Origin: Bartonella kosoyi
GTDB taxonomy: Bacteria; Pseudomonadota; Alphaproteobacteria; Rhizobiales; Rhizobiaceae
Direction of reading: 5' to 3'
DNA length: 64,000 nucleotides
Assembly: GCF_003606325.2 (NCBI RefSeq)
Contig: NZ_CP031843.2
Coordinates: 682,001 to 746,000, forward strand
Shown here: one piece after another, positions 8,642 through 62,401 of the stretch
Layout of the letters: the number at the start of each line of letters is the position of its first letter
Position numbering within the stretch: the first letter of the stretch is position 1
The notes under the pieces: model-generated
Seen by the model: the letters and a program-made list of their open reading frames with translations, nothing else
Told to the model about the DNA's origin: nothing
The model's database searches: none
Position numbers and translations under genes: made by a program

Positions 8642-9799
8642 GTGAGGGGGATTCATCGATTATCAGCAGCGTTCGTAAAGACATCTCCTCAAGGTAAATA
8701 TTGTGACGGGGCAGGGTTGTGGCTGAATGTTCGAAAAGACAATACACGTTCTTGGTTCTTTCGTTATACATACCATAACAAACGCCGTGAAATGGGGCTT
8801 GGTCCAGTTGCACAACTTTCTCTAAAAGAAGCGCGCGAACTTGCCAAGCATTATAGTGCTATTCTCAGAGAAGGCAATGACCCTATTGTCTTTCGAGAAC
8901 AAACCGTCTTAAAACAGCAAAGCAACATATTCAGTGAGATTGCAACAGCGGCTTTTGAAAGTAAAAAAGCAGAGTTAAAAAATGAAGGCAAAAATGGGCG
9001 CTGGTTTTCTCCGCTGGAATTGCATGTTATTCCACACATAGGCGGCCTCTCTATAGAAAAATTAACGGCTAATATCATTCGCAATGTTCTTGCTCCTCTT
9101 TGGCATGAAAAAGCAGACACAGCACGAAAAGCACTTAATCGTATTAACATTTGTTTGAAATATGCTGCGGCTCTTGGTTTGGACGTTGATCTACAAGCTT
9201 GTATGAAAGCACGCGCCCTTTTAGGAAAACCCCGTGCAACATCAACAAATATCCCTGCTATGCCATGGCAAGAAGTTCCGGCATTTTATCAAAGCTTGGA
9301 TGATAAGATTCTTTCAAATTTAGCACTGAAGTTGCTTATTTTGACTGGAGTACGGTCGTATCCATTACGCTATTTGCGTCTTGAACAAATTGATAAAGAT
9401 ATATGGACGATACCCAAAGAAAATATGAAGGGTATTGTGGGAAAGGTTTCAGACTTTCGCGTGCCATTGAGTGATGAAGCTTTAAAAGTGATTGAAAAAT
9501 CTCTCCCTTTTGAGAAAAAAGGTTTTTTATTTGCTGGGAGTTCTGGAAAGCCTATATCTGATGTAACACTTTCTAAATTCATGAAAGACAAAGGTTTTGA
9601 TTATAGACCCCATGGTTTCAGATCTAGTCTTCGTGATTGGATAGCAGAGACAACGTCAACACCCTTTGAGATCGCAGAAACTGTTCTTGCGCATTCAGTT
9701 GGGAGTTCAGTGACAAAAGCTTATATGCGAACCGATTTTTTGAAACAACGCCATGCTCTCTTGGAACAGTGGGCTGCATTTATAATAGGAGAAACTTGA
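8642..9799 (+). CDS. int: Prophage integrase, P4-type tyrosine recombinase
   Basis: A 385-aa site-specific recombinase. The N-terminal DUF4102-like arm-binding domain (about residues 1-85) contains DGAGLWLNV and REMGLG. The core-binding domain follows, then the catalytic domain with R238 (TGVRS), H324-x-x-R327 (HGFRS), H351 (LAHS) and the nucleophile Y361 (KAYMR). All catalytic residues are present, so it should be active. It starts at GTG 8642, with a stop codon directly upstream and GAAGGGAAA as ribosome site. Its stop TGA at 9797-9799 lies inside the TTGACA -35 box of the leader RNA promoter that follows. Confidence 0.95.
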   Translation: MRGIHRLSAAFVKTSPQGKYCDGAGLWLNVRKDNTRSWFFRYTYHNKRREMGLGPVAQLSLKEARELAKHYSAILREGNDPIVFREQTVLKQQSNIFSEIATAAFESKKAELKNEGKNGRWFSPLELHVIPHIGGLSIEKLTANIIRNVLAPLWHEKADTARKALNRINICLKYAAALGLDVDLQACMKARALLGKPRATSTNIPAMPWQEVPAFYQSLDDKILSNLALKLLILTGVRSYPLRYLRLEQIDKDIWTIPKENMKGIVGKVSDFRVPLSDEALKVIEKSLPFEKKGFLFAGSSGKPISDVTLSKFMKDKGFDYRPHGFRSSLRDWIAETTSTPFEIAETVLAHSVGSSVTKAYMRTDFLKQRHALLEQWAAFIIGET

Positions 9800-10071
9800 C
9801 AGGCTTATAACAATGTGTCTATTGTCAAATCAGGTGCCTAGAAAACACCTTAGACACATAGCGGATAGATTGCCGATACAATCTTTTCTCCGCATATTAA
9901 AGCCTTTGACTCATTGTACGTTACACACATATAATGATTTTGTCGGGTGTGGTTATGCTATACAATACCCTTTTGGGGAAGGCATAACGACGGGCTATGT
10001 GCCGTGTTTTCTAGCACCCGGCGCTCTTCTAGAGTGTCAATAGAAGACATTTAAACACATAGGAGTTCGTT
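9796..10071 (+). ncRNA. Leader RNA, copy A (barcode CACATAG)
   Basis: Promoter P1 is TTGACA (9796-9801), 18 nt, TATTGT (9820-9825). Internal promoter P2 is TTGACT (9906-9911), 18 nt, TATAAT (9930-9935). X1 is CTAGAAAACAC (9838-9848) plus CACATAG (9855-9861). X2 is CTATGTG (9995-10001) plus GTGTTTTCTAG (10004-10014). X3 is TAGAAGACA (10041-10049) plus CACATAG (10056-10062), the last running into the AGGAG of the antA ribosome site (10061-10065). X2 can pair with X1 or with X3. Other helices are GCGGA/TCCGC (9861-9865, 9889-9893), CGGGTG/CACCCG and the hairpin at 10020-10038. Seen in six copies with covariation. Confidence 0.8.
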
Positions 10072-10602
10072 ATGAACACACTTATAGAAATTAAAGAACA
10101 AATCATTGATCAGGAAACTGTTCAGACAGTAAACGCACGCGAATTGCATACGTTTTTGGCAATAGGAAAACGTTTTGCTACTTGGATTACGAACCGCATT
10201 AATCAGTATGCATTTGAAGAGGGAAAGGACTATATTTTAACGCTTCCCAAAATTGGGAAACGTAAAAATGTTATCAGCAAAGAATATCACCTTACTCTAG
10301 ACATGGCCAAAGAACTCTCAATGGTTGAACGCAATGAGAAAGGTAGGCAGGCTCGTCGTTACTTTATTGAGTGTGAGAAAAAGTTAAAAAGCCAATCTAT
10401 TGATTATGATAATGATACACGCTTTGACTTGCCAAGCTATTGAGAGGGTATGAGTGCTGGTGAAAAAGCTTTGTATCTTTTAGGTCCAATCCATATGCGT
10501 CTTATTGATGCTTTCAGAGTAGATGAAGAGAATAGAAAATATAAAGCCCTCATTAAAGAAGCTAAGCGGGTTTTAGCAAGATCTGTTACGAAAGCTGCTT
10601 AA
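10072..10602 (+). pseudogene. AntA/AntB antirepressor, interrupted by a stop (cassette A)
   Basis: The first 123 codons give an AntA/AntB-type domain (QTVNARELHTFLAIGKRFAT, then KEYHLTLDMAKELSMVERN and RRYFIECEKKL). A TGA at 10441-10443 replaces the TGG codon that is intact in the otherwise very similar gene at 62402, where the protein is 176 aa. The frame then stays open to TAA at 10600-10602. Antirepressors of this class inactivate phage repressors, usually by direct binding. The truncated product keeps the whole N-terminal domain and might still act. The leader sits directly upstream. Confidence 0.85.
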
Positions 10603-10620
10603 GTTTAAAAGCATGGCCAT

Positions 10621-10643
10621 CTCCCCGTTTTAAAAGCGGGGAG
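10621..10643. terminator. GC-rich hairpin ending cassette A
   Basis: Perfect arms CTCCCCG (10621-10627) and CGGGGAG (10637-10643) with a TTTT/AAAA extension in the loop. No long U tract follows. Closely related hairpins follow all six antirepressor cassettes, so it is a conserved part of the cassette and probably a terminator. Confidence 0.55.
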
Positions 10644-10663
10644 GGGATTATTGGATAAATCTC

Positions 10664-10699
10664 TTGACATGAGTCTTAAATGTAGTACACTGTAATACA
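10664..10699 (+). promoter_or_regulatory. relBE promoter with two operator sites
   Basis: The promoter is TTGACA (10664-10669), 16 nt, TACACT (10686-10691). Two palindromes overlap the -10 region: TGTAGTACA (10681-10689) and TGTAATACA (10691-10699). A TGTATTACA site lies in the same place before the second relBE at 44868, which supports autoregulation by the RelB-type antitoxin. Confidence 0.65.
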
Positions 10700-10721
10700 A
10701 ATAAATAGGAGATTGAGGCAA

Positions 10722-10997
10722 ATGGGTAAAATTCAAGCACGCATCCCTGATGAAGTTCAGGAAGTTGCAAGCGCAGTTATTAAATCCGCGGGCTTAACTG
10801 TATCAGATGCGGTCCGTATGTTTATGACCCGTATTGCTAGAGATAGAGCATTGCCACTTGATCTATTTCAACCTAATCCGGAAACATTGCAGGCTATTGA
10901 GGATGCTGAAATGGGACGTGTTGAACGTACGTCATTGGATGGTTTGCGCGCCATGATTCGTGATGATAAAGCCGAAGTATGTAAGTCTGAAAAGTGA
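10722..10997 (+). CDS. relB: RelB/DinJ-family antitoxin
   Basis: A 91-aa antitoxin. The N-terminal ribbon-helix-helix DNA-binding part contains QARIPDEVQEVASAVIKSAG, then LTVSDAVRMFMTRIARDRAL, the typical RelB/DinJ signature. The acidic, flexible C-terminus would wrap the toxin. The ATG at 10722 is preferred over the in-frame TTG at 10713 because AGGAG (10708-10712) is well spaced for it. The toxin gene follows after 12 nt. It is about half identical to the RelB at 44913. Confidence 0.9.
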   Translation: MGKIQARIPDEVQEVASAVIKSAGLTVSDAVRMFMTRIARDRALPLDLFQPNPETLQAIEDAEMGRVERTSLDGLRAMIRDDKAEVCKSEK

Positions 10998-11009
10998 CTT
11001 TGGCTAGCG

Positions 11010-11291
11010 ATGCCGGAAATTATTTATACTAAATCTTTTCGGCGTGATCTGAAACGTGAAAGTAAAGGGCGATATGCTGATACATTAGAGACAGATTTGC
11101 TGGTTGTGATCAAAGCATTAGCGGAAAACGAACCCTTAAAAATGCAGTGGAGAGATCACGCACTAACAGGGCAATGGCGAAACTGTCGTGATTGCCATAT
11201 TAAACCAGATCTCGTTTTGATCTATCGAAAGCCTGATGATGAAACTTTAGAACTTTTACGGCTTGGTTCACATTCTGAACTGCGTTTATGA
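11010..11291 (+). CDS. relE: YafQ/RelE-family mRNA interferase toxin
   Basis: A 93-aa toxin of the YafQ branch. The core is KSFRRDLKRESKGRY, then DHALTGQWRNCRDCHIKPDL and VLIYR, ending LLRLGSHSEL. The conserved catalytic histidines (DHALTG, DCHI, GSHS) are all present, so it should cleave mRNA on the ribosome. It is neutralised by the antitoxin encoded 12 nt upstream. It is the last gene of the plus-strand block and meets the minus-strand ATPase/nuclease gene head-on. Confidence 0.9.
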   Translation: MPEIIYTKSFRRDLKRESKGRYADTLETDLLVVIKALAENEPLKMQWRDHALTGQWRNCRDCHIKPDLVLIYRKPDDETLELLRLGSHSELRL

Positions 11292-11321
11292 TAATTTTTC
11301 AAGTTTTTGAAAACTATTGTT

Positions 11322-13364
11322 TTAAATCTTTAATGTAGAAATAAATGCTTCATTCCTTAATTTTGCATCCGCCACTAAATCACTCCACTCTATTATTTCA
11401 ACGGATCCTCGAAAATCACCTTGTAGAGGATTAGTTCTCCCTCGCCCATTAGCTGTTTTCTGCCATGTTGACGTTTGCGTTTTAAGTTCACCTTCTATAT
11501 CAGCAATAATATAACAATAAAAAACACACTGCTCTGAAATATTTATTTTTTTATTATCCAATGTCTTTATACTTTTTCCTTTAAGTTCATTGAGGTATTT
11601 GTTTATTTGATTCATGGGGGAGTAACCCGCTTTATATTTTTTCTGACCTGGTCTTTTAAACTCCACCAACATTAACTTATCCAGATCTGCATCAAGACGA
11701 CCTTCAAGTCCTAAAGCATATAATTGATCATAACATAATAAATCAGGACGACCTTTTTCTGTACTATTCTTTGCGATTTTTTTGATAGGCATATCCGAAG
11801 CGAAGTATCTTGTAAATGTTAATCGCTCATCAATAATCCATAAATCATGCGTTAAATTTTCTTGAGATTTAGGATCATCCCCCCTAACACGCATTGGACA
11901 AATAAGTTCATGCAACGTTTTCTCTAAATGCGGTACGTCTTGACCGTTAACATTTTTCTTAACCTCTATTACTAATTCTCCTAAAATATCAAGTATAACT
12001 TTACGACGGATAACATACTCTGCTAATTGTCTTGTTTCTTCATCTTTAACTTCTTTTGCAAGTTCAGAAACTTTCTCGGAAAAGCTATATGTATTGGTAT
12101 TCCCTTCAGTAATTTCACGGTATATTTTTTCAATTCTCAAATTTTGCTTTTTTTCTCTCCTAAGCTTATGAATAGCCAGTGTCTTAACAAAGTCTTCTGT
12201 ATCCTTTGCAGATTTGGGAAGTTTTTCTAATAATTTTTCATAACTATCAAAACAATACGAAGGGTGTGTTCTACAAAATTCTTTTAATTTATTTAAACGT
12301 TTTTCTTCGTAGTCTTTATTTTCTGGAGCAAGAACGCTATTTACAATATTATTAGCAACGGAACGTAAAATATCTTTCAATATTTTATCCTTAAAGGAAA
12401 AATGCGTTCTTTCTTGATTAACTCTATCATCTAAATACTGACCACTTATACAACCATGATACACCAACCCCTGATCTCCAAATTTTCCGAAACCAATAAG
12501 GTTATCTATACTTTCAGTAGTAACAGTACGGTCATGTGCGAAAAGATGCAGATAGTGGTTCTTCCCTTTAAAGTTACGGTTAGCATCTGCCATGCAAATA
12601 AAATTACGAATTTTTAATAAACCAAAATCTGCGGTTTCAAGTGTAGTATCTCCTCTATTTTCTACTAAATATTTTTTAACTTTCTGTGCTAAATCAACAG
12701 ACATCTGATCATCACAAAAAGTTATTTTAGGAAGTTGTTCTAAAATTAAATCTGAAAAAAAATGTGCCCCAATATGATCGATAATTGCTTCAGTTTCACG
12801 TGGAAAGTGTTTTTGATACGCAGAATCTCTTAAACCAGTAAAAATAATTTCTGTTCCCGTTATCTCTTGATTAATAAGAGGTATTTTTGAATGATCAATA
12901 ATTTGGTTTTCTTCATCTAAACAAAACTTAAAGCTTCTTTGGTAAAGCTGATCTTTTTCGAAGAATACACTGTTAACCCGTATTTCATGAAAGGCATCCA
13001 ACCATAGCAGCCGTCCAACCCCTTTTCCTCCTTTTTTAAATTTAAAATTAGTATCCACAGTACGAAAAGCTTGAAAGTGCTCATCATCCAACCCTATACC
13101 ATTGTCTTTAATTATAATTTCAAGTGATTCATTATCCTCTATATCGTTGATTTTTATATCTATATTACCTGCGCTTCTGTAATCCTCTTGCTTAGAATCT
13201 TCAAGCGCATGAATAGCGTTGCTTACCGCTTCAAAAACAGGCTGCAAAGCTTCCATTTCAGTGGATGGTTTAGGAAAACGACAAACCCTTCCAGCAAGAT
13301 TTTCTTTCATAGAAAACTTTTCAGTTTTATTTTTTTCTTGTTTTTGAACTGAAACACTTCTCAT
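11322..13364 (-). CDS. GHKL ATPase fused to a PD-(D/E)XK nuclease-like domain
   Basis: About 680 aa. Counted from the GTG at 13376, the N-terminal part has the Bergerat fold motifs: N-box VFEAVSNAIHAL (E49, N53), G1 DNGIGL (91-96) and G2 GGKGVG (116-121), as in Hsp90/MutL/histidine-kinase ATPases. The C-terminal part has GRPDLL (D545) and LVEFKRP (E572, K574), a PD-(D/E)XK nuclease pattern. A charged helical region links them. I prefer the ATG at 13364 because GTGGAAA gives it a ribosome site. It sits alone between a TA module and the lysis genes, a usual place for accessory genes. A defence role against other phages is an inference; the domains are seen in the sequence. Confidence 0.75.
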   Translation of the reverse strand: MRSVSVQKQEKNKTEKFSMKENLAGRVCRFPKPSTEMEALQPVFEAVSNAIHALEDSKQEDYRSAGNIDIKINDIEDNESLEIIIKDNGIGLDDEHFQAFRTVDTNFKFKKGGKGVGRLLWLDAFHEIRVNSVFFEKDQLYQRSFKFCLDEENQIIDHSKIPLINQEITGTEIIFTGLRDSAYQKHFPRETEAIIDHIGAHFFSDLILEQLPKITFCDDQMSVDLAQKVKKYLVENRGDTTLETADFGLLKIRNFICMADANRNFKGKNHYLHLFAHDRTVTTESIDNLIGFGKFGDQGLVYHGCISGQYLDDRVNQERTHFSFKDKILKDILRSVANNIVNSVLAPENKDYEEKRLNKLKEFCRTHPSYCFDSYEKLLEKLPKSAKDTEDFVKTLAIHKLRREKKQNLRIEKIYREITEGNTNTYSFSEKVSELAKEVKDEETRQLAEYVIRRKVILDILGELVIEVKKNVNGQDVPHLEKTLHELICPMRVRGDDPKSQENLTHDLWIIDERLTFTRYFASDMPIKKIAKNSTEKGRPDLLCYDQLYALGLEGRLDADLDKLMLVEFKRPGQKKYKAGYSPMNQINKYLNELKGKSIKTLDNKKINISEQCVFYCYIIADIEGELKTQTSTWQKTANGRGRTNPLQGDFRGSVEIIEWSDLVADAKLRNEAFISTLKI

Positions 13365-15607: not shown

Positions 15608-15886
15608 TTAAGCAACCTTTTTAATGGGGTTATCTAAATCTGGATTATAAGTGCGCAATAAAGAATCCATGCTATGCGGTAACTCTGAAGCTCCAAAATC
15701 TGTAAGAATTGCTAAAATCTTTGTAATATTGGGTAGTTCATTTTGAAGTTTTAAAACTAAAACTTTTTCTATCAATTCCATAACTTCAACTATGGCATTA
15801 CAATTTTCATCTCCAATGCCTCGATGATTGGAAAATTTAAACAGTGCCAACCACAAATCGCACAAGAAGTTGGTATCTATCTTCAT
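15608..15886 (-). CDS. 92-aa partner protein of the antirepressor (cassette D)
   Basis: Starts MKIDTNFLCDLWLALFKF and ends LDNPIKKVA. The ATG overlaps the stop of the antirepressor gene by 4 nt (ATGA), so the two are translated together. Near copies are at 24228, 35390 and 45500; this one is the most divergent (SNHRGIGDENCNAIVEVMEL in the middle). It is mostly helical, with no membrane segment or known motif. No function is known to me; the strict pairing suggests it modifies or stabilises the antirepressor. Confidence 0.75.
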   Translation of the reverse strand: MKIDTNFLCDLWLALFKFSNHRGIGDENCNAIVEVMELIEKVLVLKLQNELPNITKILAILTDFGASELPHSMDSLLRTYNPDLDNPIKKVA

Positions 15887-16620
15887 TGTACACCTCCATG
15901 GATTTGTTCTCTCAAACATGCCAATCCTCTGGATGTGATTTTCGTTGAAGGGAGTACCTTTTCTGTACCATCCGGTCTTTGAATGGTGATAGCAGGACAA
16001 TCCATGAATCCTTTCTTGATTTTATCCTGATAAGGTAATAGAGGCGCCCCTGGAGCCCGTCGATAGACCCAATCATTTTTACGCAAGTAATCTGTTAAAT
16101 CCTTTGGTCGCACCTCTAACATTTTTGCTGCTTCGATTAAACCAAACAAACCATCAGAACGTTTTAAACCTTCTAAAGCTTCTGCTTTTGGAGTTAGTTC
16201 TGCAATAACATGGTCTTTTTGCTCGATTTGGCTTTGTAAGTGATTCAAGACACCCAGTAAGGCTTGGGGAGTTGAGTAATCGATTTGTGGTGTTGCTACT
16301 TTTTTCAAAAGCTGTTCACATTTGATAAAGTATTGACGTGCTTCATGTCCTTTATCATTACGCTCGATCATCGAAAGGTGTTTAGCCATGTCTAAGGTTA
16401 AGTAATATTCTTTACTGATAATATTTTTACGTTTCTCATTTTTGAGAAGGGTAAAAATGAAGTCACGATTTTCTCGAAAATTACATTCTTTAATACGACG
16501 AATAATCCAATCTGCAAATTTAGAATTAATCTCTAAAAATGCATGCAAATCACGTGCGTTAACAGTTTGAACAGTTTCTTGATCAATAACTTGTTCTTTA
16601 ATTTCTATAAGAGTGTTCAT
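15883..16620 (-). CDS. AntA/AntB + KilAC antirepressor (cassette D)
   Basis: 245 aa. Residues 1-110 are an AntA/AntB-type domain (QTVNARDLHAFLEINSKFAD, KEYYLTLDMAKHLSMIERND). A coiled linker (HLQSQIEQKDHVIAEL) leads to a KilAC/ANT C-terminal DNA-binding domain ([40 protein letters not shown]). It would interfere with a phage repressor. The C-terminal half is nearly the same in cassettes B, E and F, while the N-terminal half varies. The start ATG follows AGGAG of the leader. Confidence 0.9.
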   Translation of the reverse strand: MNTLIEIKEQVIDQETVQTVNARDLHAFLEINSKFADWIIRRIKECNFRENRDFIFTLLKNEKRKNIISKEYYLTLDMAKHLSMIERNDKGHEARQYFIKCEQLLKKVATPQIDYSTPQALLGVLNHLQSQIEQKDHVIAELTPKAEALEGLKRSDGLFGLIEAAKMLEVRPKDLTDYLRKNDWVYRRAPGAPLLPYQDKIKKGFMDCPAITIQRPDGTEKVLPSTKITSRGLACLREQIHGGVQ

Positions 16621-16893
16621 GTGAACTCCTATGCAGTTAGACGTTTCTTAATGACACTCAAAAAGAGTGCCGGGTGCTAAGAAACACGGTGCATAGTCCG
16701 TCGTCACGCTTTTCCCAAAAGGGTATTTTATGGCACAGCCACACCCGACAAAACCATTATATGCGTGTAACATATAACGAGTCAAAGTTTTTAATCGGCG
16801 GAGAAAAGATTGTATCGGCAATCTATCCGCTGTGTATTTAAAGTGTTTCTTAGGCACCTGATTCGATTATTCATATTTTCGCCATATTGTCAA
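16621..16893 (-). ncRNA. Leader RNA, copy D (barcode TGCATAG)
   Basis: Plus-strand positions: P1 -35 at 16888-16893, -10 (TAATCG) at 16864-16869, spacing 18. P2 -35 (TTGACT) at 16780-16785, -10 (TATAAT) at 16756-16761, spacing 18. X1 barcode at 16830-16836 reads TACACAG, X2 at 16690-16696 reads CTATGCA, X3 at 16629-16635 reads TGCATAG. X2 and X3 pair fully, but X1 has two mismatches to X2, the only copy where this is so. The 11-nt arms CTAAGAAACAC and GTGTTTCTTAG still match. Confidence 0.8.
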
Positions 16894-23197: not shown

Positions 23198-23472
23198 TTG
23201 ACATTATTTCTGCAATGTGTATTTTCAAATCAGGTGCCTGAAAAACGCCTTAAATACACAGCGGACAAACTACCGACATAGTTTATTTTCCGCACATTAA
23301 AGACTTTGACTCATTATATGCTACATGCGTATAATAGATTTGTCGGGTGTAGTTGCGCTATACAATACCCTTATGGGGAAAGCATAACGACGGACTGTGT
23401 ACCGTGTTTTTCAGCACCCGGCACTCTTCTGGAGTGTCAATGAAAAACGTTTAATTACACAGGAGCCAAATC
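23198..23472 (+). ncRNA. Leader RNA, copy B (barcode TACACAG)
   Basis: P1: TTGACA (23198-23203), about 16 nt, TATTTT (23220-23225). P2: TTGACT (23306-23311), 18 nt, TATAAT (23330-23335). X1: CTGAAAAACGC (23238-23248) plus TACACAG (23255-23261). X2: CTGTGTA (23395-23401) plus GTGTTTTTCAG (23404-23414). X3: TGAAAAACG (23441-23449) plus TACACAG (23456-23462), joining AGGAG. The inner hairpin uses AAACTA/TAGTTT where copy A uses GATTG/CAATC, a compensatory change. Confidence 0.8.
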
Positions 23473-24231
23473 ATGGCGCAATATTTAATCGACATACACA
23501 AAGCTACGATTGATGGTGATATCGTTCAGACCGTTAATGCACGTGAATTACATACATTTTTGGAAGTAGGTAAAAAGTTTGCGGATTGGATTACTGAACG
23601 TATCAACAAATATAATTTAGTAGAAAATCAAGACTTTGTTTGCTTCCCTATTTTGGGAAGCAAAGGCAGGGGTGGTCACAATCGTAAAGACTATCACCTT
23701 ACCTTAAGCGTAGCTAAAGAGCTTTCTATGCTTGAAAATAATAAGAAAGGTAGAGAAGCTCGTTTATACTTTATCGAATGTGAAAGACGGTTAAAACAAG
23801 TAGCAACACCACAGATAGTCGCTCCACAAGTTGATTACTCCAAACCCGAAGCATTACTTGGTGTCTTAAATCATCTACAAAGACAAATCGAGAAGAAGGA
23901 TAACACCATTGCTGAATTGACTCCAAAAGCAGAGGCTTTAGAAGGCTTAAAACGTTCTGATGGTTTGTTTGGTCTTATCGAAGCAGCGAAGATGTTGGAG
24001 GTGCGACCAAAGGACTTAACCGATTACTTGCGTAAACATGATTGGGTCTATCGTCGTGCTCCAGGGGCGCCTTTGTTACCTTATCAGGATAAAATCAAAA
24101 AAGGCTTCATGGATTGCCCTGCTATCACCATTCAAAGACCGGATGGTACAGAAAAGGTACTCCCTTCAACGAAAATCACATCCAGAGGATTGGCATGTTT
24201 GAGAGAGCAAATCCATGGAGGTGTACAATGA
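23473..24231 (+). CDS. AntA/AntB + KilAC antirepressor (cassette B)
   Basis: 252 aa. The N-terminus is a different AntA/AntB variant (MAQYLIDIHKATIDGDIVQT, then a GRGGHNRKDYHLTLSVAKEL stretch). The C-terminal KilAC half, from YSKPEALLGVLNHLQ on, is almost the same as in cassettes D, E and F. Ribosome site AGGAG lies at 23461-23465, overlapped by the X3 segment of the leader. The stop overlaps the following 92-aa gene (ATGA). Confidence 0.9.
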   Translation: MAQYLIDIHKATIDGDIVQTVNARELHTFLEVGKKFADWITERINKYNLVENQDFVCFPILGSKGRGGHNRKDYHLTLSVAKELSMLENNKKGREARLYFIECERRLKQVATPQIVAPQVDYSKPEALLGVLNHLQRQIEKKDNTIAELTPKAEALEGLKRSDGLFGLIEAAKMLEVRPKDLTDYLRKHDWVYRRAPGAPLLPYQDKIKKGFMDCPAITIQRPDGTEKVLPSTKITSRGLACLREQIHGGVQ

Positions 24232-35389: not shown

Positions 35390-35668
35390 TTAAGCAACCT
35401 TTTTAATGGGGCTATCGAGATTTGGTTCATAAGCGCACAATAAAGAATCCATGCTATGCGGTAATTCTGAATCGCCAAAATCTGTGAGAACTGTTAAGAT
35501 TTTAAGTATACTTGGCATCTCATCTTGGAGTTTTGAAATTAAAGCTTTTTCTATGACACTCATAGTATCAACCAGAGCTGTACAATCTTTATCATTCATA
35601 TTTCCATGTCTAGAAAATTGAGATAATGCCATCCATAAATCGCACAAGAAGTTGGTATCTATCTTCAT
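35390..35668 (-). CDS. 92-aa partner protein of the antirepressor (cassette E)
   Basis: Almost the same protein as at 24228 and 45500, with small changes (SLLCAYEPNLDSPIKKVA at the end). It overlaps the antirepressor stop by 4 nt. That it stays the same although the antirepressor N-terminus is a different domain here suggests it works with the shared KilAC half. Confidence 0.78.
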   Translation of the reverse strand: MKIDTNFLCDLWMALSQFSRHGNMNDKDCTALVDTMSVIEKALISKLQDEMPSILKILTVLTDFGDSELPHSMDSLLCAYEPNLDSPIKKVA

Positions 35669-36405
35669 TGTACACCTCCATGGATTTGCTCTCTCAAACA
35701 TGCCAATCCTCTGGATGTGATTTTCGTTGAAGGGAGTACCTTTTCTGTACCATCCGGTCTTTGAATGGTGATAGCAGGACAGTCCATAAAGCCTTTCTTG
35801 ATCTTGTCCTGATAAGGCAACAAAGGCGCCCCTGGAGCCCGTCGATAGACCCAATCATGTTTACGCAAGTAATCCGTTAAATCCTTTGGTCGCACCTCTA
35901 ACATCTTCGCAGCTTCGATAAGACCAAACAAACCATCAGAACGTTTTAAACCTTCCAAAGCCTCTGCTTTTGGAGCCAATTCGGCAATGGTGTTATCCTT
36001 CTGCTCGATTTGATTTTGTAAGTGATTTAAAACACCAAGTAATGCTTCGGGTTTGGAATAATCAACTTGTGGTGTTGCTACTTGCTTTTCCAATTCTTGC
36101 CAACGGTCAATAATCTTTGCTCGTAAAGTAGTGTTATAACCAGAAACAAGAATTAGACATTCACGCTTTGGAAGGTTGTAACAAGGAAGTGTACGCCCTG
36201 TTGAGTCTTTGTATAATCCTGAAAAATCACTCACCCCAAATTTGGGGGCAGTACTTTCAGAGTTTAATTCTCCTAACATTTGTTTAATGTCACGCATGAC
36301 ATGGTCATGTCTTTTACCGCACAACTCAGCAATTTCGCGACTAGACATAGTCTGAGTGGTAGCACTATTAGCAGTGCTTTCTTTAATTTCTATAAGTGTG
36401 TTCAT
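35665..36405 (-). CDS. Rha + KilAC antirepressor (cassette E)
   Basis: 246 aa. Unlike its relatives, the N-terminal domain is of the Rha type: [50 protein letters not shown] and [10 protein letters not shown]. The C-terminal half from YSKPEALLGVLNHLQ is the common KilAC domain. Rha proteins are phage regulatory proteins that interfere with growth when IHF is absent. The gene is a product of domain swapping. The leader is directly upstream. Confidence 0.9.
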   Translation of the reverse strand: MNTLIEIKESTANSATTQTMSSREIAELCGKRHDHVMRDIKQMLGELNSESTAPKFGVSDFSGLYKDSTGRTLPCYNLPKRECLILVSGYNTTLRAKIIDRWQELEKQVATPQVDYSKPEALLGVLNHLQNQIEQKDNTIAELAPKAEALEGLKRSDGLFGLIEAAKMLEVRPKDLTDYLRKHDWVYRRAPGAPLLPYQDKIKKGFMDCPAITIQRPDGTEKVLPSTKITSRGLACLREQIHGGVQ

Positions 36406-36678
36406 AATGAACTCCTTGGTAATAGACGTTTTTGATTGACACTCTAAAAGAGTGCCGGGTGCTCAAAAACACGGTACCAAGTCCGTCGTTATGCTTTCCC
36501 TGCGAAGGTATTTTATAGCACAACCACACCCGACAAGATCTTTATATGCTACCACATATAATGAGTCAAAATCTTTAATGTTCAGAAGATTGATTATTTC
36601 GGCAATCAATCCGCTTGGTATTTTAAGGTGTTTTTGAGGCACCTGATTCGATTATTCATATTGTCGCCACATTGTCAA
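36406..36678 (-). ncRNA. Leader RNA, copy E (barcode TACCAAG)
   Basis: Plus-strand positions: P1 -35 (TTGACA) 36673-36678, -10 (TAATCG) 36649-36654, spacing 18. P2 -35 (TTGACT) 36564-36569, -10 (TATAAA) 36541-36546, spacing 17. X1 barcode 36614-36620 and X3 barcode 36415-36421 both read TACCAAG; X2 at 36475-36481 reads CTTGGTA. The 11-nt arm is CTCAAAAACAC with GTGTTTTTGAG. Here the outer GCGGA stem is poorly matched, but the inner stem is longer (GATTGATT/AATCAATC). Confidence 0.8.
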
Positions 36679-44912: not shown

Positions 44913-45176
44913 ATGGCTACCAGTCGCATGGTTCAAGCACGTGTACCGGAAGAAATTCAAAATGTTGCTAATCAAGTTATTCAAGCCTCTGGTTTGTCAG
45001 TAAGTGATGTCGTGAGAGTGTTGATGACACGTATTGCGCAAGATAAAGCTATTCCTTCTTTTTTGTTTCAACCCAATGCAGAAACCATAGCGGCTTTTGC
45101 TGAACTTGATGAAGGCAACTTAAAAAAGTTTCATTCCGTAGACGAATTATTTGATGATCTCTATGCGGACGATTGA
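44913..45176 (+). CDS. relB: RelB/DinJ-family antitoxin
   Basis: 87 aa: VQARVPEEIQNVANQVIQAS, GLSVSDVVRVLMTRIAQDKA, then FLFQPNAETIAAF and an acidic end. It is a clear paralogue of the antitoxin at 10722. Ribosome site GAGAGGAG. The toxin gene overlaps by 14 nt. Confidence 0.93.
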   Translation: MATSRMVQARVPEEIQNVANQVIQASGLSVSDVVRVLMTRIAQDKAIPSFLFQPNAETIAAFAELDEGNLKKFHSVDELFDDLYADD

Positions 45177-45444
45177 ACGTACGACTATCTTCAAACGTGA
45201 TTTCAAGCGTGAGATGAAAGGACGATATCGGCATCTTTTAGATACTGATTTACGCAAAGTCATCGCAGCATTAGCAAATGATCAACCTTTAGAGCTTCGA
45301 TATCATGACCATGCTTTAACTGGAAATTGGAAAGATTATCGGGATTGTCATATTCGACCTGATTTGGTTTTGATCTATCGCTTGATTGGTCAAGAGAGGC
45401 TCGTTTTAGTGCGTCTTGGTTCTCATTCACAGCTTAATCTGTAA
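45163..45444 (+). CDS. relE: YafQ/RelE-family toxin
   Basis: 93 aa from the ATG at 45163. TTIFKRDFKREMKGRYRHLL, DHALTGNWKDYRDCHIRPDL and VLVRLGSHSQLNL carry the family histidines and mark it as a paralogue of the toxin at 11010. It converges on antirepressor cassette F. Confidence 0.93.
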   Translation: MRTIERTTIFKRDFKREMKGRYRHLLDTDLRKVIAALANDQPLELRYHDHALTGNWKDYRDCHIRPDLVLIYRLIGQERLVLVRLGSHSQLNL

Positions 45445-45499: not shown

Positions 45500-45778
45500 T
45501 TAAGCAACCTTTTTAATGGGGCTCTCGAAATTTGGTTCATAAGCGCGCAACAAAGAATCCATGCTATGTGGTAATTCTGAATCGCCAAAATCTGTGAGAA
45601 CTGTTAAGATTTTGAGTATACTTGGCATCTCATCTTGAAGTTTTGAAATTAAAGCTTTTTCTATGACACTCATAGTATCAACCAGAGCAGTACAATCTTT
45701 GTCATTCATATTCTCATGTCTAGAAAATTGAGATAATGCCATCCATAAATCACATAAGAAGTTGGTATCTATCTTCAT
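45500..45778 (-). CDS. 92-aa partner protein of the antirepressor (cassette F)
   Basis: Near-copy of the genes at 24228 and 35390 (MKIDTNFLCDLWMALSQFSR; AYEPNFESPIKKVA at the end). 4-nt overlap with the antirepressor. Function unknown. Confidence 0.78.
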   Translation of the reverse strand: MKIDTNFLCDLWMALSQFSRHENMNDKDCTALVDTMSVIEKALISKLQDEMPSILKILTVLTDFGDSELPHSMDSLLRAYEPNFESPIKKVA

Positions 45779-46518
45779 TGCACACCTCCATGGATTTGCT
45801 CTCTCAAACATGCCAAACCTCTGGATGTGATTTTTGTCGAAGGGAGTACCTTTTCTGTACCATCTGGTCTTTGGATAGTGATAGCAGGACAATCCATGAA
45901 TCCTTTCTTGATTTTATCTTGGTAAGGTAACAAAGGTGCTCCTGGAGCTCGTCGATAGATCCAGTCATGTTTGCGCAAGTAATCGTTTAAATCCTTTGGT
46001 CGCACCTCTAACATCTTCGCTGCTTCGATTAAACCAAACAAACCATCAGAACGTTTTAAGCCTTCCAAAGCTTCTGCTTTTGGCTTGAGTGTACTCACCT
46101 CATTTCTTAAGTCTTCTAATTGATTGATACTCTCTAAAAGGAGCTGTTTAATCGTAAGAGGATTTTCCAATGCATTGGCAAGATCTACTTGTGGTGTTGC
46201 TACTTGTTTCAAAAGCCGTTCACATTTGATAAAGTATTGACGTGCTTCATGCCCTTTATCATTACGTTCGATCATGGAAAGATGTTTAGCCATGTCTAAG
46301 GTAATGTGGTATTCTTTAGAAGGACGCCCACCTGAACTTTCGCTCAAAAAAGAGCAAAAGTCATATCCTTCTTTAAATTTACAGTCTTGAATACGTCTGA
46401 TAATCCAGTCTTTAAAGCTGGTTTTTACTTCTAAAAACGCATGCAAATCACGAGCATTAACGGTTTGGACAGTTTCCTGATCAATAGTTTGTTCCGATAT
46501 CGGAATAAGAGTGTTCAT
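45775..46518 (-). CDS. AntA/AntB + KilAC antirepressor (cassette F)
   Basis: 247 aa from the ATG at 46518; the open frame extends upstream into the leader, but AGGAG at 46524-46528 and comparison with the other copies fix the start. AntA/AntB part: QTVNARDLHAFLEVKTSFKD, SSGGRPSKEYHITLDMAKHL. The linker differs from B and E (ENPLTIKQLLLESINQLEDL). The KilAC part is the shared one, with small changes (DLNDYLRKHDWIYRRAPGAP). Confidence 0.9.
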   Translation of the reverse strand: MNTLIPISEQTIDQETVQTVNARDLHAFLEVKTSFKDWIIRRIQDCKFKEGYDFCSFLSESSGGRPSKEYHITLDMAKHLSMIERNDKGHEARQYFIKCERLLKQVATPQVDLANALENPLTIKQLLLESINQLEDLRNEVSTLKPKAEALEGLKRSDGLFGLIEAAKMLEVRPKDLNDYLRKHDWIYRRAPGAPLLPYQDKIKKGFMDCPAITIQRPDGTEKVLPSTKITSRGLACLREQIHGGVQ

Positions 46519-46797
46519 GTGAACTCCTTGTTGATAGATGTTTCTTAATGACACTCCAAAAGAGCGCCGGGTGCTAAGAAACACGGCAACAAGCCCGTCG
46601 TTATGCTTTTCCCCCGAAAGGGTATTTTATGGCATAACCACACCCGACAAGACCAGTATACGCTATACGCGCATAATGAGTCAAAGCCTTTACAATGTGC
46701 GGAAGACTGATTATTTCGGCAACCAATCCGCTTGTTGTTTTGAGGTGTTTCTTAGGCACCTGATTCGGCAATAGACATAACATCACTGCCTTGTCAA
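46519..46797 (-). ncRNA. Leader RNA, copy F (barcode CAACAAG)
   Basis: Plus-strand positions: P1 -35 (TTGACA) 46792-46797, -10 (TATTGC) 46768-46773, spacing 18. P2 -35 (TTGACT) 46679-46684, -10 (TATACT) 46655-46660, spacing 18. X1 barcode 46731-46737 and X3 barcode 46527-46533 read CAACAAG; X2 at 46587-46593 reads CTTGTTG. The inner stem is GATTGGTT/AATCAGTC with G-T pairs, and the outer GCGGA/TCCGC stem is kept. Confidence 0.8.
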
Positions 46798-58441: not shown

Positions 58442-58843
58442 ATGGAAAAGAAATACGAACTTACTGATGAGAAAGCTGAGTTTAAAGGGGTAACTCTTCA
58501 CCGTATCCGCGCTTTAAGAGACTTTGGAGTTATTAAAAAAGGTAATTTAGGCGGCTTTATAGAAAATGAAAACAACCTATCGCATCATGGTAATTGCTGG
58601 GTAGGTGGTAATGCATTCGTCTTATCTTGTGCTTGCGTTTACGATAATGCTCAAGTTTATGATGATGCTGAAGTTTATGGTAGTGCACGAATTAAACATA
58701 ATGCACATGTTTACGGTTTTGCCGAAGTTTATGGAATGGCAACGGTTTCCGGTAATGCACGTATTTATGGTAACGCAAAAATTTATCGTGATGCGGATAT
58801 TGATGGCGATAATATCATGTCCACTGGAGAAAAAGCATGGTGA
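58442..58843 (+). CDS. Repeat protein 2 of 3 (hexapeptide-like)
   Basis: 133 aa with the same N-terminal module (KYELTDEKAEFKGVTLHRIR, ALRDFGVIKKGNLGGFIENE) and about ten repeats (YDNAQVYDDAEVYGSARIKH; YGFAEVYGMATVSGNARIYG). 11 nt after repeat protein 1; overlaps repeat protein 3 by 7 nt. No catalytic pattern of acyltransferases was seen. Confidence 0.82.
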   Translation: MEKKYELTDEKAEFKGVTLHRIRALRDFGVIKKGNLGGFIENENNLSHHGNCWVGGNAFVLSCACVYDNAQVYDDAEVYGSARIKHNAHVYGFAEVYGMATVSGNARIYGNAKIYRDADIDGDNIMSTGEKAW

Positions 58844-59337
58844 AAAAATACGAACTGACTGATGAGACAATCGAAGTTGATGGAAAAACTCTTCACCGAA
58901 TTAGAGCATTGAGAGACTTTGGAGATGTTAAAAAAGGAGATCTAGGTGGTTTTATTGAAAATGAAGGAAATCTTAGCCATGAGGGCAATTGTTGGGTAGG
59001 TGGTTCATATATACCCTGTGCAACTGGATATGTTTACGGCAATGCCAAGATTTATGAGAATGCTAAGGTTTATGGCAATGCACGTGTTTATGACAATGTA
59101 GAGGTTTTTGGAAATACCTATATTATGGGTCCTGCTCGCATTTATAACAATGTAAAAATTTATGATAATGCTATTATATCGGGCTGTTTCGTGGGAAATG
59201 TTGAGATTTTTGGAGATGCAAAAGTTTATGAGAATGCTCGTATTTATGACGAAGTTAAGATTTCTCAAAATGCCGAGGTTTGTGGATTAGCTAATATTAA
59301 CGGAAACACGAGAATTCCTCAAGATATAAAAATCTAA
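58837..59337 (+). CDS. Repeat protein 3 of 3 (hexapeptide-like)
   Basis: 166 aa, the longest copy. Module KYELTDETIEVDGKTLHRIR, then ALRDFGDVKKGDLGGFIENE, then about fifteen repeats (YGNAKIYENAKVYGNARVYD; ARIYNNVKIYDNAIISG). The number of repeats rises along the three genes, as expected for repeat expansion after duplication. Confidence 0.83.
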   Translation: MVKKYELTDETIEVDGKTLHRIRALRDFGDVKKGDLGGFIENEGNLSHEGNCWVGGSYIPCATGYVYGNAKIYENAKVYGNARVYDNVEVFGNTYIMGPARIYNNVKIYDNAIISGCFVGNVEIFGDAKVYENARIYDEVKISQNAEVCGLANINGNTRIPQDIKI

Positions 59338-59412
59338 CAACCAAACCAAACAACTTTTAACACAAGCGTGATTCACGCCACGGGGGAATTGCGCGCAATG
59401 GAGGAAAGCAAA

Positions 59413-60234
59413 ATGAATGAACAAAACACGAACTTAACAGAAGTAAACAAAACAAACAATTGTGAAGTCAAATCTACAGCTATGGAACTTATTTTAGAAA
59501 GAGCTTTAGAAAATGATGTCGATCTGGACCGTCTCAAGAGCCTTCTCGAGTTACGAGAAAAGGAGATAGAACGACAAGAGCGCAAGAATTTTGTCCGTGA
59601 TCTTTCTATTATGCAAATGGAATATCAAAAAATACATAAAAATGCTACAAACACCCATACAAATAGCCAATATGCTACGCTTGATAAATATCTTGATGCC
59701 ATAAAGGATAGTCTTTCAAAATATCGCTTTTCCTTGTTTTCTCGTATCAAAGAGCAGAATTCAAATGGCATAACTGTAGAAATGACTTTAAAGCATATAT
59801 CAGGCAATGAAATATCAACACAAGGAACATTTCCTTTTGACACTACAGGGAGTAAAAATAACATACAAGCAGTTGGTTCTACAATCACTTACGCACGTAG
59901 ATATCTCTTAGGTATGCTTCTTAATATTGTGAGTGAAGATGATGATACAGATGGAAACGCTCCTATCAAAAAGGCATTTCCGCAGCAAATCAATGAAATC
60001 AGAAGACTCATAGTGCAAACCCAATCAGAAGAAGCAAAGGTACTTGATTATGTTAAAGTCAAAAATCTTACGGATATGTCTGAGGGACAAGCCCAAATCG
60101 TTTTGCATCTTTTGAAAGATAAACAAAACAAGCAAAAGGCTCCAAAAGAACAATCTCTTCCACAACAAAAGAAGATAGACGCACCTATACAAGATATTGA
60201 ATATGCACCAACACAACAACAAACGGCGGTGTGA
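59413..60234 (+). CDS. ERF-family single-strand annealing protein
   Basis: 273 aa from the ATG at 59413; an earlier in-frame start at 59368 lacks a good site. The ERF core is FVRDLSIMQMEYQKIHKNAT, NTHTNSQYATLDKYLDAIKD, VEMTLKHISGNEISTQGTFP and AVGSTITYARRYLLGMLLNI followed by SEDDDTDGN. It anneals complementary strands in phage recombination, together with the exonuclease encoded next to it. Confidence 0.93.
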   Translation: MNEQNTNLTEVNKTNNCEVKSTAMELILERALENDVDLDRLKSLLELREKEIERQERKNFVRDLSIMQMEYQKIHKNATNTHTNSQYATLDKYLDAIKDSLSKYRFSLFSRIKEQNSNGITVEMTLKHISGNEISTQGTFPFDTTGSKNNIQAVGSTITYARRYLLGMLLNIVSEDDDTDGNAPIKKAFPQQINEIRRLIVQTQSEEAKVLDYVKVKNLTDMSEGQAQIVLHLLKDKQNKQKAPKEQSLPQQKKIDAPIQDIEYAPTQQQTAV

Positions 60235-60235
60235 A

Positions 60236-60859
60236 ATGAAACAAAGAACAGAAGAATGGTTTCAAGCCCGTCTAGGCAAAGTCACCGCATCAAACGTTTA
60301 TAATGTACTCAGTAAAACAGCGAGGGGAACCCCTACAAGCAAATATGAGAACTATAAAATCCAACTTATGACAGAGCGATTAGCAGAGAAAGTAAACCAG
60401 TTTTATACGACACCTGCTATGCAATGGGGCATTGAACATGAAGAAGATGCCCTAAAAGAATATGAATTCATTTATGACACGATTGTCACAAGATGCGGAT
60501 TTATCGAACATCCCACAATCAAAATGGCTGGTGCAAGCCCTGATGGTTTTATTGGTGATGACGGTTTAGTTGAAGTCAAATGCCCGCAAACAAATACTCA
60601 CCTGCGCTTTTTTATAGATGACAATATAAAGCCCGAATATAGTGCGCAAATGCAGTTCCAAATGGCTTGCACTGGACGAAAATGGTGTGATTTCATTAGC
60701 TATAATCCGCATTTTGTAGGCAAATCACTTCACTTGCGCATGAAAATCAAACGCATCTACCGTGATGAAGAACAAATTGAACAGATCAATCAAGCGGTTG
60801 AAGTCTTTTTAGAGGAAATAGAGCAAGAGATGGAAAAGATCTCGACAAAAGCTGCATGA
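60236..60859 (+). CDS. YqaJ-type recombination exonuclease
   Basis: 207 aa from the ATG at 60236. RTEEWFQARLGKVTASNVYN, MQWGIEHEEDALKEYEF, then the active site GASPDGFIGDDGLVEVKCPQ (D, E and K of PD-(D/E)XK). It resects DNA ends for the ERF protein. It starts 1 nt after the ERF stop, so the two are coupled. Confidence 0.94.
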   Translation: MKQRTEEWFQARLGKVTASNVYNVLSKTARGTPTSKYENYKIQLMTERLAEKVNQFYTTPAMQWGIEHEEDALKEYEFIYDTIVTRCGFIEHPTIKMAGASPDGFIGDDGLVEVKCPQTNTHLRFFIDDNIKPEYSAQMQFQMACTGRKWCDFISYNPHFVGKSLHLRMKIKRIYRDEEQIEQINQAVEVFLEEIEQEMEKISTKAA

Positions 60860-60941
60860 AGTTATGGGGGTGCTCTCTCCTCCCAGCACCCCCGCCTATT
60901 TATAATTATTCTCAACACTTAGATAATAAGGAAAGTTTTAA

Positions 60942-61208
60942 ATGAACGAAGAAAAATTAACTGCCTCAATAGAAAAAGTAAGCTTATTCGAACAAGCTTT
61001 ACTGTCGATGCGTTTGCAACGGCTTGTCAATATACAAGATCTCTCAATTTATCTCGGAATGTCAATGACATATATTAGAGAGCTTGTAAAAATCGGAGCT
61101 TTTCCTAAGCCTATACAAGAAGGACGATACCTAAAATGGGATCTTGTTGAAATTGATCGTTATATTGAAGCTAAAAAAACTGAAAGAGATTCTGTAGAAT
61201 TGTCTTGA
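60942..61208 (+). CDS. AlpA-like excisionase / MerR-type HTH
   Basis: 88 aa with a winged helix-turn-helix: IQDLSIYLGMSMTYIRELVK, IGAFPKPIQEGRYLKWDLVE and IDRYIEAKK. This is the AlpA/DUF helix-turn-helix_17 pattern that drives excision by P4-type integrases. Last early gene. Confidence 0.85.
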   Translation: MNEEKLTASIEKVSLFEQALLSMRLQRLVNIQDLSIYLGMSMTYIRELVKIGAFPKPIQEGRYLKWDLVEIDRYIEAKKTERDSVELS

Positions 61209-61284
61209 AGAAGTCCAAAGTAACGAACTGCTCGTAGAGACAGGTTAACAAAAATGACAGAAAATTATTGATAATAGCTTGATC

Positions 61285-61452
61285 ATGAATAATTTAGTGA
61301 CAATCGGTAATGATGGTATTGCCGTTAAGATCTCTTTAAAAATTACAGAGGGTGTGGGGAATAGCCACGCTACAGTTATAAAGCTTGTACATCAAAATAT
61401 TGAAGACTTTCAAGAATTTGGAAGGGTTGGATTTGAAATCTCACCCTTTTGA
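61285..61452 (+). pseudogene. Rha-family regulator, truncated
   Basis: 55 codons: NNLVTIGNDGIAVKISLKIT, EGVGNSHATVIKLVHQNIED, then FQEFGRVGFEI. This is the N-terminus of stand-alone Rha proteins (usual pattern VTIxN...GVGNxHxxVIxLV...LEEFG..AFE). It ends at a TGA where integrase-like sequence starts, so a deletion joined two genes. Confidence 0.65.
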
Positions 61453-61490
61453 AAAAAGGGTGTTCTATTTGCTGGAAGTTCAGTGACAAA
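61441..61490 (+). pseudogene. Integrase fragment (late catalytic part)
   Basis: CACCCTTTTGAAAAAAGG followed by GTTCTATTTGCTGGAAGTTC resembles the integrase region coding LPFEKKGFLFAGSS (residues 288-301), continuing with TCAGTGACAAA as in the SSVTKA region (355-360). An internal deletion and frameshifts make it non-functional. Confidence 0.6.
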
Positions 61491-61569
61491 TTTAAAAAAT
61501 GGAGATAAGAAACATCAACAGGCTTTAAAGCCTTCTCATAGTCAATAAATCTATTAAAAAAGGGGAAAA

Positions 61570-61989
61570 ATGAAACAAACTTTAAAATTATTAAGCTGCA
61601 TAGCTTTATTAAATATGGCTGGATGTAACTCAAAGCCTCCTTCAACATCCTTTGTTATATGGGAAAAGCCAGGTGTAAACTCTACTGAGGTAGGAAACGC
61701 ACTATTAGAGTGTGGTGCGCTATCTCCTTATAGTAGCGGTATAGACAATAGCAAATTAGGCATTCATGAATGGTCGATGATTCATGCTTGTATGATCCAA
61801 TCAGGATTTCACTATAAAATTAAAGATGGGAAATGGTGTGAAAATTGTAAAGATGATAGGATTCCGGTATATTCTCTTAATAGTTCTATCAAGACTCAAA
61901 GAAGTGTTGAGAAACGCTTAAACAGCTCGTTTTGTAAAAACGACGGTATAATAAAACTTCTCAATATCAACACTCCGTTTTGCCATTGA
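61570..61989 (+). CDS. Small prophage lipoprotein
   Basis: 139 aa. Lipoprotein signal: KQTLKLLSCIALLNMAGC with lipobox NMAGC and Cys19. The mature part has several Cys (LECGALSPYSSGI; WCENCKDD; SSFCKNDG; FCH) that could form disulfides. Good ribosome site AAAGGGGAAAA. It lies between excisionase and the right terminal repeat, a typical lysogenic-conversion position. Unknown function; an envelope-associated accessory protein is likely. Confidence 0.7.
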   Translation: MKQTLKLLSCIALLNMAGCNSKPPSTSFVIWEKPGVNSTEVGNALLECGALSPYSSGIDNSKLGIHEWSMIHACMIQSGFHYKIKDGKWCENCKDDRIPVYSLNSSIKTQRSVEKRLNSSFCKNDGIIKLLNINTPFCH

Positions 61990-62024
61990 TCATCAACAAT
62001 CAAAATACTGTATGGGATAGTAAT

Positions 62025-62127
62025 AGCTTATATGCGAACAGATTTTTGGGAACAATGACATACCCTTATGGAACAGTGGGCTGCCCCTTATGGAACAGTG
62101 GGCTGCATTTATAACAGGAGCGACTTG
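62025..62127 (+). pseudogene. Integrase 3'-end remnant with internal duplication
   Basis: AGCTTATATGCGAACAGATT corresponds to KAYMRTDF of the integrase (residues 359-366). A tandem duplication of about 24 bp repeats CTTATGGAACAGTGGGCTGC. The remnant ends at the same GACTTGACAGG stop region as the intact gene. It includes the active-site Tyr codon but is not in a usable gene. Confidence 0.8.
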
Positions 62128-62401
62128 ACAGGCTTATAACAATGTGTCTATTGTCGAATCAGGTGCCTGAAAAACACCTTGAATCGATAGCGGATAGATT
62201 GCCGAAACAATCTTTTCTCCGCACATTAAAGGCTTTGACTCATTGTATGCTACACGCATATAATGACTTTGTCGGGTGTGGTTATGCTATACAATACCTT
62301 TTATAGGGAAAGCGTGACGACGGACTATCGACCGTGTTTTTCAGCACCCGGCATCCTTTGTTGGATGTCAATGAAAAATCTCTAATCGATAGGAGTTCGT
62401 T
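62125..62401 (+). ncRNA. Leader RNA, copy C (barcode TCGATAG)
   Basis: P1: TTGACA (62125-62130), 18 nt, TATTGT (62149-62154). P2: TTGACT (62235-62240), 18 nt, TATAAT (62259-62264). X1: CTGAAAAACAC (62167-62177) plus TCGATAG (62184-62190). X2: CTATCGA (62325-62331) plus GTGTTTTTCAG (62334-62344). X3: TGAAAAAT (from 62372) plus TCGATAG (62386-62392), joining AGGAG (62391-62395). Its last hairpin is GCATCC/GGATGT, where other copies have GCACTC/GAGTGT: a compensatory double change. Confidence 0.8.

Follow-up and report, generated by a model that had tools for sequence, protein, structure and literature searches.

Six regulator genes of phage type in one stretch of a Bartonella genome each follow a leader whose short complementary words differ from copy to copy, raising the question of what such a private code is for. 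The stretch comprises 64,000 nucleotides of Bartonella kosoyi (contig NZ_CP031843.2, positions 682,001 to 746,000; hereafter the window), in which a sequence-only reading had picked out the six leaders, each with three segments, X1, X2 and X3, the last of which runs into the ribosome site of the regulator gene, and had considered kinship with the Brt RNAs of Bartonella henselae. The anatomy of the leaders, their exact two-part complementarity with covariation and their match to the Rfam family sRNA-Xcc1 (RF02221; sRNA, small RNA) are observed. Judged from sequence, the leaders are very probably antisense RNAs of the C4 type, each of which would use an address in two parts to silence the antirepressor of its own operon. 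C4 itself, the antisense RNA of phages P1 and P7, is processed by RNase P, pairs with the ribosome site through a block b' and upstream of it through a block a', and underlies P1/P7 heteroimmunity (PMC5320573, PMC12197685; published work is cited here and below from the available excerpts of each article).

A copy-specific pairing code in the leaders

In every window leader a 7-nt word (heptamer) in X2 is the exact reverse complement of the heptamer in X3 (6/6), and the X1 heptamer equals that of X3 in five of the six, the exception being the leader at 16621 (X1 TACACAG, X3 TGCATAG); an 11-nt arm of X1 complements X2 in all six, with one G-U pair in the copy at 23198. The heptamer counts agree with what the sequence-only reading had reported. 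The exceptional leader is the same as another copy in the genome (L009) from the promoter through hairpin 1 and divergent after it (alignment read by eye), and is thus probably a chimera in which X2 and X3 travelled together.

BLAST located 16 leader copies in the home genome (2.28 Mb, two contigs), of which 15 keep X3, exact in all 15, and 14 have an exact X1 (alignment read by eye). For the genus, copies were picked by the core alone, the part of the leader that holds X2, so that X1 and X3 were unselected. The script, which demanded a stem of 4 bp with a loop of 8 nt and recovered 14 of the 16 home copies, gave 186 hits from part of the genus matches listed; with one unparsed hit skipped and double hits removed, 140 per-genome copies from 39 genomes were left, or 134 distinct sequences. 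X3 was exact in 115 and X1 in 118 of these (both in 106, X1 alone in 12, X3 alone in 9, neither in 7), as against 7 of 6808 trials (0.1%) in which the heptamer of another copy turned up in the X3 region and 114 of 6808 (1.7%) for the X1 region, double hits being still included in both trial counts. Chance is thereby excluded as the source of the X2/X3 match, and the covariation is real and copy-specific, as had been claimed. A simple repeat artefact was ruled out as well, because the heptamers that match differ from copy to copy.

Positions 1-2 of the heptamer (CT) are invariant and positions 3-7 vary, giving 32 heptamers among the 106 fully exact copies; a constant CT is as expected if these two positions pair with the AG of the Shine-Dalgarno sequence. 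The second part of the address, arm a, covaries among X1, X2 and X3 in most genus copies inspected, its X3 occurrence going beyond what had been listed separately before. Several copies without X3 carry another leader's promoter or degenerate sequence at that place. A global MAFFT alignment of 186 leaders misplaced X3, which was therefore searched alignment-free. In an 87-row alignment (A1), 95.8% of X1:X2 cells are paired versus 31.8-45.3% when slid, and 98.2% of X2:X3 cells at the four alignable pairs versus 18.3-63.2%, figures that are inflated by the choice of rows (85 of the 87 were picked for matching X1 and X3), the unbiased counts being those of the 134-copy set; two of five measures on A1, both-side-changed pairs and further pair types, were not above shuffles.

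As to arrangement, the tandem leaders L028, L040 and L089 pass from the core directly into another leader's promoter, with no intervening gene and X3 lost, and leaders in the genus genome G023 are spaced as closely as about 570 bases.

A match to sRNA-Xcc1 and a spread beyond Bartonella

At gathering scores, an Rfam search of the window returned two tRNAs and nothing else. A relaxed search placed RF02221 in all six leaders (40.4-50.6 bits, E<=0.0012; gathering score 53) and in 11 of 11 home genome sources, ten of which are further copies beyond the window. The 16 home copies score 39.1-52.5 bits (E<=0.0012), all under the gathering score, and each covers positions 1-87 of the 87-position model. 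Within the genus 50 of 71 genomes have a match, 38 of them above the gathering score, as against 0 of 14 control genomes; across Pseudomonadota the family occurs in 58 of 398 genomes (39 above the gathering score; the home genome is among the 398), and a pattern scan, some of whose loci were already in that set, picked out 70 stretches from named genomes, with Cupriavidus, Pseudomonas putida (strain 31753 has copies), Desulfovibrio and Arcanobacterium among them. By these sequence matches Brt-type RNAs are not genus-specific, and the idea of a family confined to Bartonella does not stand.

Placed on the RF02221 structure, the heptamer occupies the loop of hairpin 2, and arm a makes up the unpaired junction. 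The most conserved part of the alignments inspected is a nearly invariant internal loop, ATACAA..ACCC / GGGGAA, in the window core at 9941-10031 and in RF02221 cores; the pairing code leaves it unaccounted for, and a protein or a ligand might bind there. The distribution is uneven: one genus genome has 46 matches, the large genus genomes (2.3-2.9 Mb) G003, G004, G014, G043-G045, G056 and G058-G063 have none, and in G026 (C1:34022-71688 and 85913-123580) the matches repeat with a fixed spacing of about 51.9 kb, which looks like the duplication of a prophage block.

Outside Bartonella, we scored stretches of 7 nt or more complementary to the loop window within 120 nt downstream or about 200 nt upstream, with mismatched loops as controls. 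Among the best 70 of 102 non-own genome loci, 25 had such a match downstream and 55 upstream (controls 2.2% and 4.1%). Among the IMG/VR matches listed (120 stretches, 80 distinct parsed loci) the numbers were 56 and 48 (controls 2.9% and 3.2%), or 37 and 34 of 59 after removal of 12 loci with a Bartonella-type stem and reduction to one row per loop. The named-genome stretches (68 of 70 parsable), a set that includes near-duplicates, four Bartonella records and some loci of the first genome set, gave 46 and 48 (controls 2.8% and 3.6%). The code is plain in a lambda-like phage, a Pseudomonas plasmid and a B. grahamii plasmid; BLAST against phages with the leader L078 and with a Bartonella prophage leader returned no match. 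Where X3 matched over 7 nt or more (79 loci), the end of the match lies most often 9 nt ahead of the start codon (27/79), and 8-10 nt ahead in 47. Twenty of the 79 downstream proteins, chosen by their first residues, were scanned with Pfam, and 16 had a domain (Rha 5, two of them below the curated cut-off; BRO-N 4; SymE 3; KilA-N 2; AntA 1; ORF6N 1), with no hit for the other 4. Since the code precedes SymE genes at L049, L069 and L126, sRNA-Xcc1 is predicted to be an antitoxin-like silencer of the adjoining symE.

A two-part address that would silence the antirepressor

The order of the segments suggests the following course. From the promoter, X1 would be made first, with a1 in the loop of a small hairpin and b1 behind it; next would come the core, a compact RNA closed by a tRNA-like stem, exposing b' in the loop of hairpin 2 and arm a' in the single-stranded junction; then the target X3, a2 followed by b2 overlapping the Shine-Dalgarno sequence; and last the antirepressor gene. 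Either in cis or, after processing, in trans, the core would pair with X3 and block the antirepressor start, leaving the prophage or remnant silent. X1 would be a second site for the same RNA, either competing for X2 and thus freeing X3 or serving as an attenuator target ahead of the core. The private address (b heptamer plus arm a) would keep each RNA mostly to its own operon and provide address-based immunity, as in P1/P7 heteroimmunity.

Predicted duplex energies for 15 home copies bear on this privacy: a target binds its own antisense RNA with a median of -15.7 kcal/mol, as against -7.2 kcal/mol for the others. The earlier expectation of little cross-talk between copies holds in part, in that the own antisense RNA is the best binder in 13 of the 15 targets; against it, the RNA of the leader at 36406 reaches -15.5 kcal/mol on the target of the leader at 23198, within 0.1 kcal/mol of the right pair (-15.6), and two copy pairs with a common heptamer and unlike arm a cross-bind at -10.8 to -11.8 kcal/mol. 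Nor was selection for distinct barcodes inside genomes found in the genus pair counts: copies of one genome share a barcode in 19 of 647 pairs and copies of different genomes in 313 of 9083, with no clear deficit of the former.

Several results weigh against silencing by a C4-type RNA. The C4 model RF01695, which P1 itself matches at 68.8 bits, had no match to the leader at 9796 (E<=10), to the 11 genome sources (E<=0.5) or to the window (E<=0.01). X3 is inexact in 19 of the 134 genus copies, and the script found no downstream 7-nt match in 45 of the 70 genome loci outside the genus. When the full leader is folded alone in cis, X1:X2 forms with a probability of 0.68-0.97 in five copies and X2:X3 with one near 0, and repression at X3 must hence come from processed or trans RNA or from folding kinetics. 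Lastly, antisense knockdown of Brt1 raised the expression of badA, and a Northern blot was without a longer Brt transcript, which Tu et al. take to mean no read-through into trp1 (PMC5387305); a badA rise without read-through counts for a trans role, and trp1 silencing explains it solely if the effect is translational.

Because the core fails to match the C4 model, we say that the window RNAs appear to work like C4 and do not call them C4, common descent with the P1 RNA not being supported by a model match. The folding result has a second side, as it indicates that X1 can hold X3 open: it agrees with the two states of the sequence-only reading, whose X1:X2 and X2:X3 pairings are indeed mutually exclusive, and with IsrK, an RNA of Salmonella that in trans makes a read-through mRNA translatable (PMC4825925).

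An activation of the IsrK kind, in which the main product would be a short X1 RNA that ends at a terminator between X1 and the core and sets X3 free by binding X2 or by changing the shape of the leader, is possible if rather unlikely. Counted over loci having X1 and enough sequence, a terminator-like hairpin follows X1 in 41 of 44 non-genus genome loci and, among the matches listed, in 9 of 24 IMG/VR loci (mononucleotide shuffles 11% for the former, shuffles 11% for the latter). The a1b1-terminator region of P1 (AF234172 48230-48311; L280:2231-2312) scores 35.1 bits against the isrK family, whose gathering score is 50, a sub-threshold match suggesting that IsrK is an X1 transcript, stopped at the terminator, from a C4-type operon. 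Within the genus the hairpin is weaker (47 of 118 copies; shuffles 23%), with a CCG..A motif retained in 74 of 118 (9% in shuffles); the reported Brt RNAs, 194-203 nt long, are not short (PMC5387305); and such activation would add to repression at X3, not replace it.

The genus genome G023, which we take to be that of B. henselae Houston-1, has 11 copies of the leader versus 9 published Brt RNAs, and X1 ends there 207-213 nt before the start codon. The Brt RNAs are reported to stop 10-18 nt short of a trp regulator gene (Tu et al., PMC5387305); adding their length to this gap would place the 5' end at 204-221 nt from the start codon, close to where X1 ends, and not at the start site predicted by the -35 box, which lies about 235-243 nt upstream of that codon. 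This may point to processing at X1:X2, a hint at most. Loss of brt1, or just of its 3' end, raises trp1 (review PMC8070961), which fits a self-silencing RNA. A kinship with Brt RNAs gains support from plasmid pBGR3 of B. grahamii as4aup, which carries a copy that obeys the code; one plasmid Brt has been counted in this strain (PMC5387305).

A cis riboswitch, in which a ligand (heme has been proposed for Brt1) would move X2 between X1 and X3 of one molecule with no trans action, we regard as improbable. It draws on the strong preference for X1:X2 in the cis folding of five window copies, on the nearly invariant internal loop, which could bind something, and on a reporter below brt1 that rose as heme fell (review PMC8070961), a response that self-silencing leaves unexplained. 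The heme result may, however, be indirect, the core is compact and C4-like with its heptamer in a hairpin loop, and the same code is found in phages and other phyla. A ligand is not needed as an explanation, because a C4-type antisense RNA accounts for the anatomy, though a signal may be sensed. That Brt-type RNAs act chiefly in trans on host mRNAs such as that of badA, as proposed for Brt1 in B. henselae (PMC5387305, PMC8070961) and favoured by the knockdown result, with self-complementarity a by-product of duplication, is very doubtful, as Brt1 is predicted to pair only weakly with the full-length badA mRNA (-1.73 kcal/mol; PMC5387305) and the heptamers covary in X1, X2 and X3, a complementarity that duplication alone would not preserve.

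Leaders and genes in the window

The gene below the leader is of the AntA type in five of the six copies and of the Rha type in one, and four of the six products have an ANT C-terminus (Table 1). Genes for YafQ/ParE-type toxins lie at 11010-11291 and 45151-45444, near the leaders w1 and w5, and a phage-type integrase gene (8642-9799) just upstream of w1 overlaps the -35 box of that leader.

Table 1. Leaders, their segments and the genes below them in the window.
Feature	Position	Strand	Remarks
Leader w1	9796..10072	+	-35 TTGACA 9796-9801; AntA gene start 10072
w1 X1 heptamer (b1)	9855-9861	+	
w1 core	9942-10022	+	X2 loop heptamer (b') 9995-10001
w1 X3 (b2)	10056-10062	+	continues into AGGAG
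w1 RF02221 match	9941-10031	+	50.6 bits
AntA antirepressor N-terminal domain gene under w1	10072..10443	+	PF08346 E=8.7e-26
Leader w2	16621..16893	-	-35 16888-16893; RF02221 40.4 bits
w2 segments	X1 16830-16836; X2 16690-16696; X3 16629-16635	-	X1 mismatched to own X2
AntA + ANT(KilAC) antirepressor under w2	15883..16620	-	PF08346, PF03374
Leader w3	23198..23472	+	X1 23255-23261; X2 23395-23401; X3 23456-23462; RF02221 50.2 bits
AntA + ANT antirepressor under w3	23473..24231	+	
Leader w4	36406..36678	-	X1 36614-36620; X2 36475-36481; X3 36415-36421; RF02221 48.1 bits
Rha (Phage_pRha) + ANT regulator under w4	35665..36405	-	PF09669, PF03374
Leader w5	46519..46797	-	X1 46731-46737; X2 46587-46593; X3 46527-46533; RF02221 41.4 bits
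AntA + ANT antirepressor under w5	45775..46518	-	
Leader w6	62125..62401	+	X1 62184-62190; X2 62325-62331; X3 62386-62392; RF02221 44.6 bits
AntA antirepressor gene under w6	62402..62932	+	

A possible class of address-coded operons

Three points appear to be new here: that Brt and sRNA-Xcc1 are linked to C4, that one genome can hold many coded copies, and that SymE toxin genes stand under the code; in the open-licence literature we did not find the link of Brt or sRNA-Xcc1 to C4 in print, and C4 and sRNA-Xcc1 co-occur as separate annotations in PMC12189769. We give about even chances to the broader view that Brt, sRNA-Xcc1, C4 and IsrK-type RNAs form one widespread class of address-coded operons, in which a self-silencing RNA, an upstream decoy or attenuator target and a downstream ribosome-site target have a private two-part address in common. 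Phages would use such operons for immunity, integrons and plasmids would carry them, an RNA antitoxin for SymE would have been recruited from them, and genomes with many copies would hold nearly orthogonal sets of silencers.

The C4-type reading offers a testable mechanism for two orphan RNA families, Brt and sRNA-Xcc1, and an alternative reading of studies that treat both as host-directed virulence sRNAs. It also points to genomes in which up to 46 related antisense RNAs with readable addresses could serve studies of RNA orthogonality and prophage immunity.

Comparison with known systems

Like the window leaders, Brt1-9 are leader RNAs of about 200 nt next to regulator genes, multi-copy, in a prophage-gene region and with a copy on a B. 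grahamii plasmid; they differ in having been published as genus-specific and as a riboswitch plus trans sRNA, and the available text of Tu et al. does not mention the pairing code or the link to C4 and sRNA-Xcc1 (PMC5387305). The sRNA-Xcc1 family shares its full model with the six window leaders and ten of ten other home copies, which differ from it in scoring under its gathering score. It has been described as under the control of virulence regulators and, in integron cassettes, as lying upstream of symE, an arrangement taken to suggest a divergent regulatory mechanism; a self-target goes unmentioned in the available text of that article (PMC12444791).

IsrK of Gifsy-1 (RF01394) has the short upstream RNA, the terminator, the read-through mRNA and a pairing that sets translation of an antirepressor operon (PMC4825925). 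It differs in being a trans activator, an action that is hypothetical for the window copies. The Group 1 C4-like sRNAs of Acinetobacter baumannii are likewise numerous, with 21 related sRNAs in one genome, mostly of the C4 fold, with a variable target loop and RNase P-like 5' ends; unlike the window RNAs they match the C4 model itself, and their targets have not been assigned to adjoining genes in the available text (PMC5320573).

The closest likeness is to C4 of P1 and P7 (RF01695; c4-a1b1, RF03163). The GenBank record of P1 (AF234172) lists putative a1/b1 targets, a 77-nt C4 RNA, a2/b2 targets and then icd and ant1, so that a1b1, C4 and a2b2 correspond to X1, X2 and X3. TTGACAG stands in a1 and a2 and GTTAGTG in b1 and b2, with their complements in C4, and a terminator with the loop CCGATA lies between a1b1 and C4. 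P7 has GATTGTG at b1 and b2, which change with b', and its C4 shows 5 differences from that of P1 over 77 positions, of which b' and a' hold two each. The barcode logic, thought unreported in the sequence-only reading, thus has a precedent in the annotation of P1, from which P7 differs by such a code. Three features of the C4 type are found in the window: an RNA upstream of and collinear with an AntA or Rha gene in six of six copies, a pair of short blocks (a', b') complementary to a target that extends over the ribosome site, and a second target pair a1/b1 upstream of the RNA. With regard to RNase P maturation of the 5' end and action in trans, a tRNA-like closing stem is what can be seen in the core. 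In both systems a1b1 comes first, followed by the antisense RNA, by a2b2 at the ribosome site and by the antirepressor operon; b' sits in a hairpin loop and a' is unpaired ahead of the closing strand; a terminator with a CCGATA loop separates a1b1 from the RNA; and the address, as between P1 and P7, differs in every segment. They differ in that the window core has another first hairpin and a shorter closing stem, that no icd-type gene stands between X3 and the antirepressor, and that one genome carries 16 copies, 15 of them with an intact X3.

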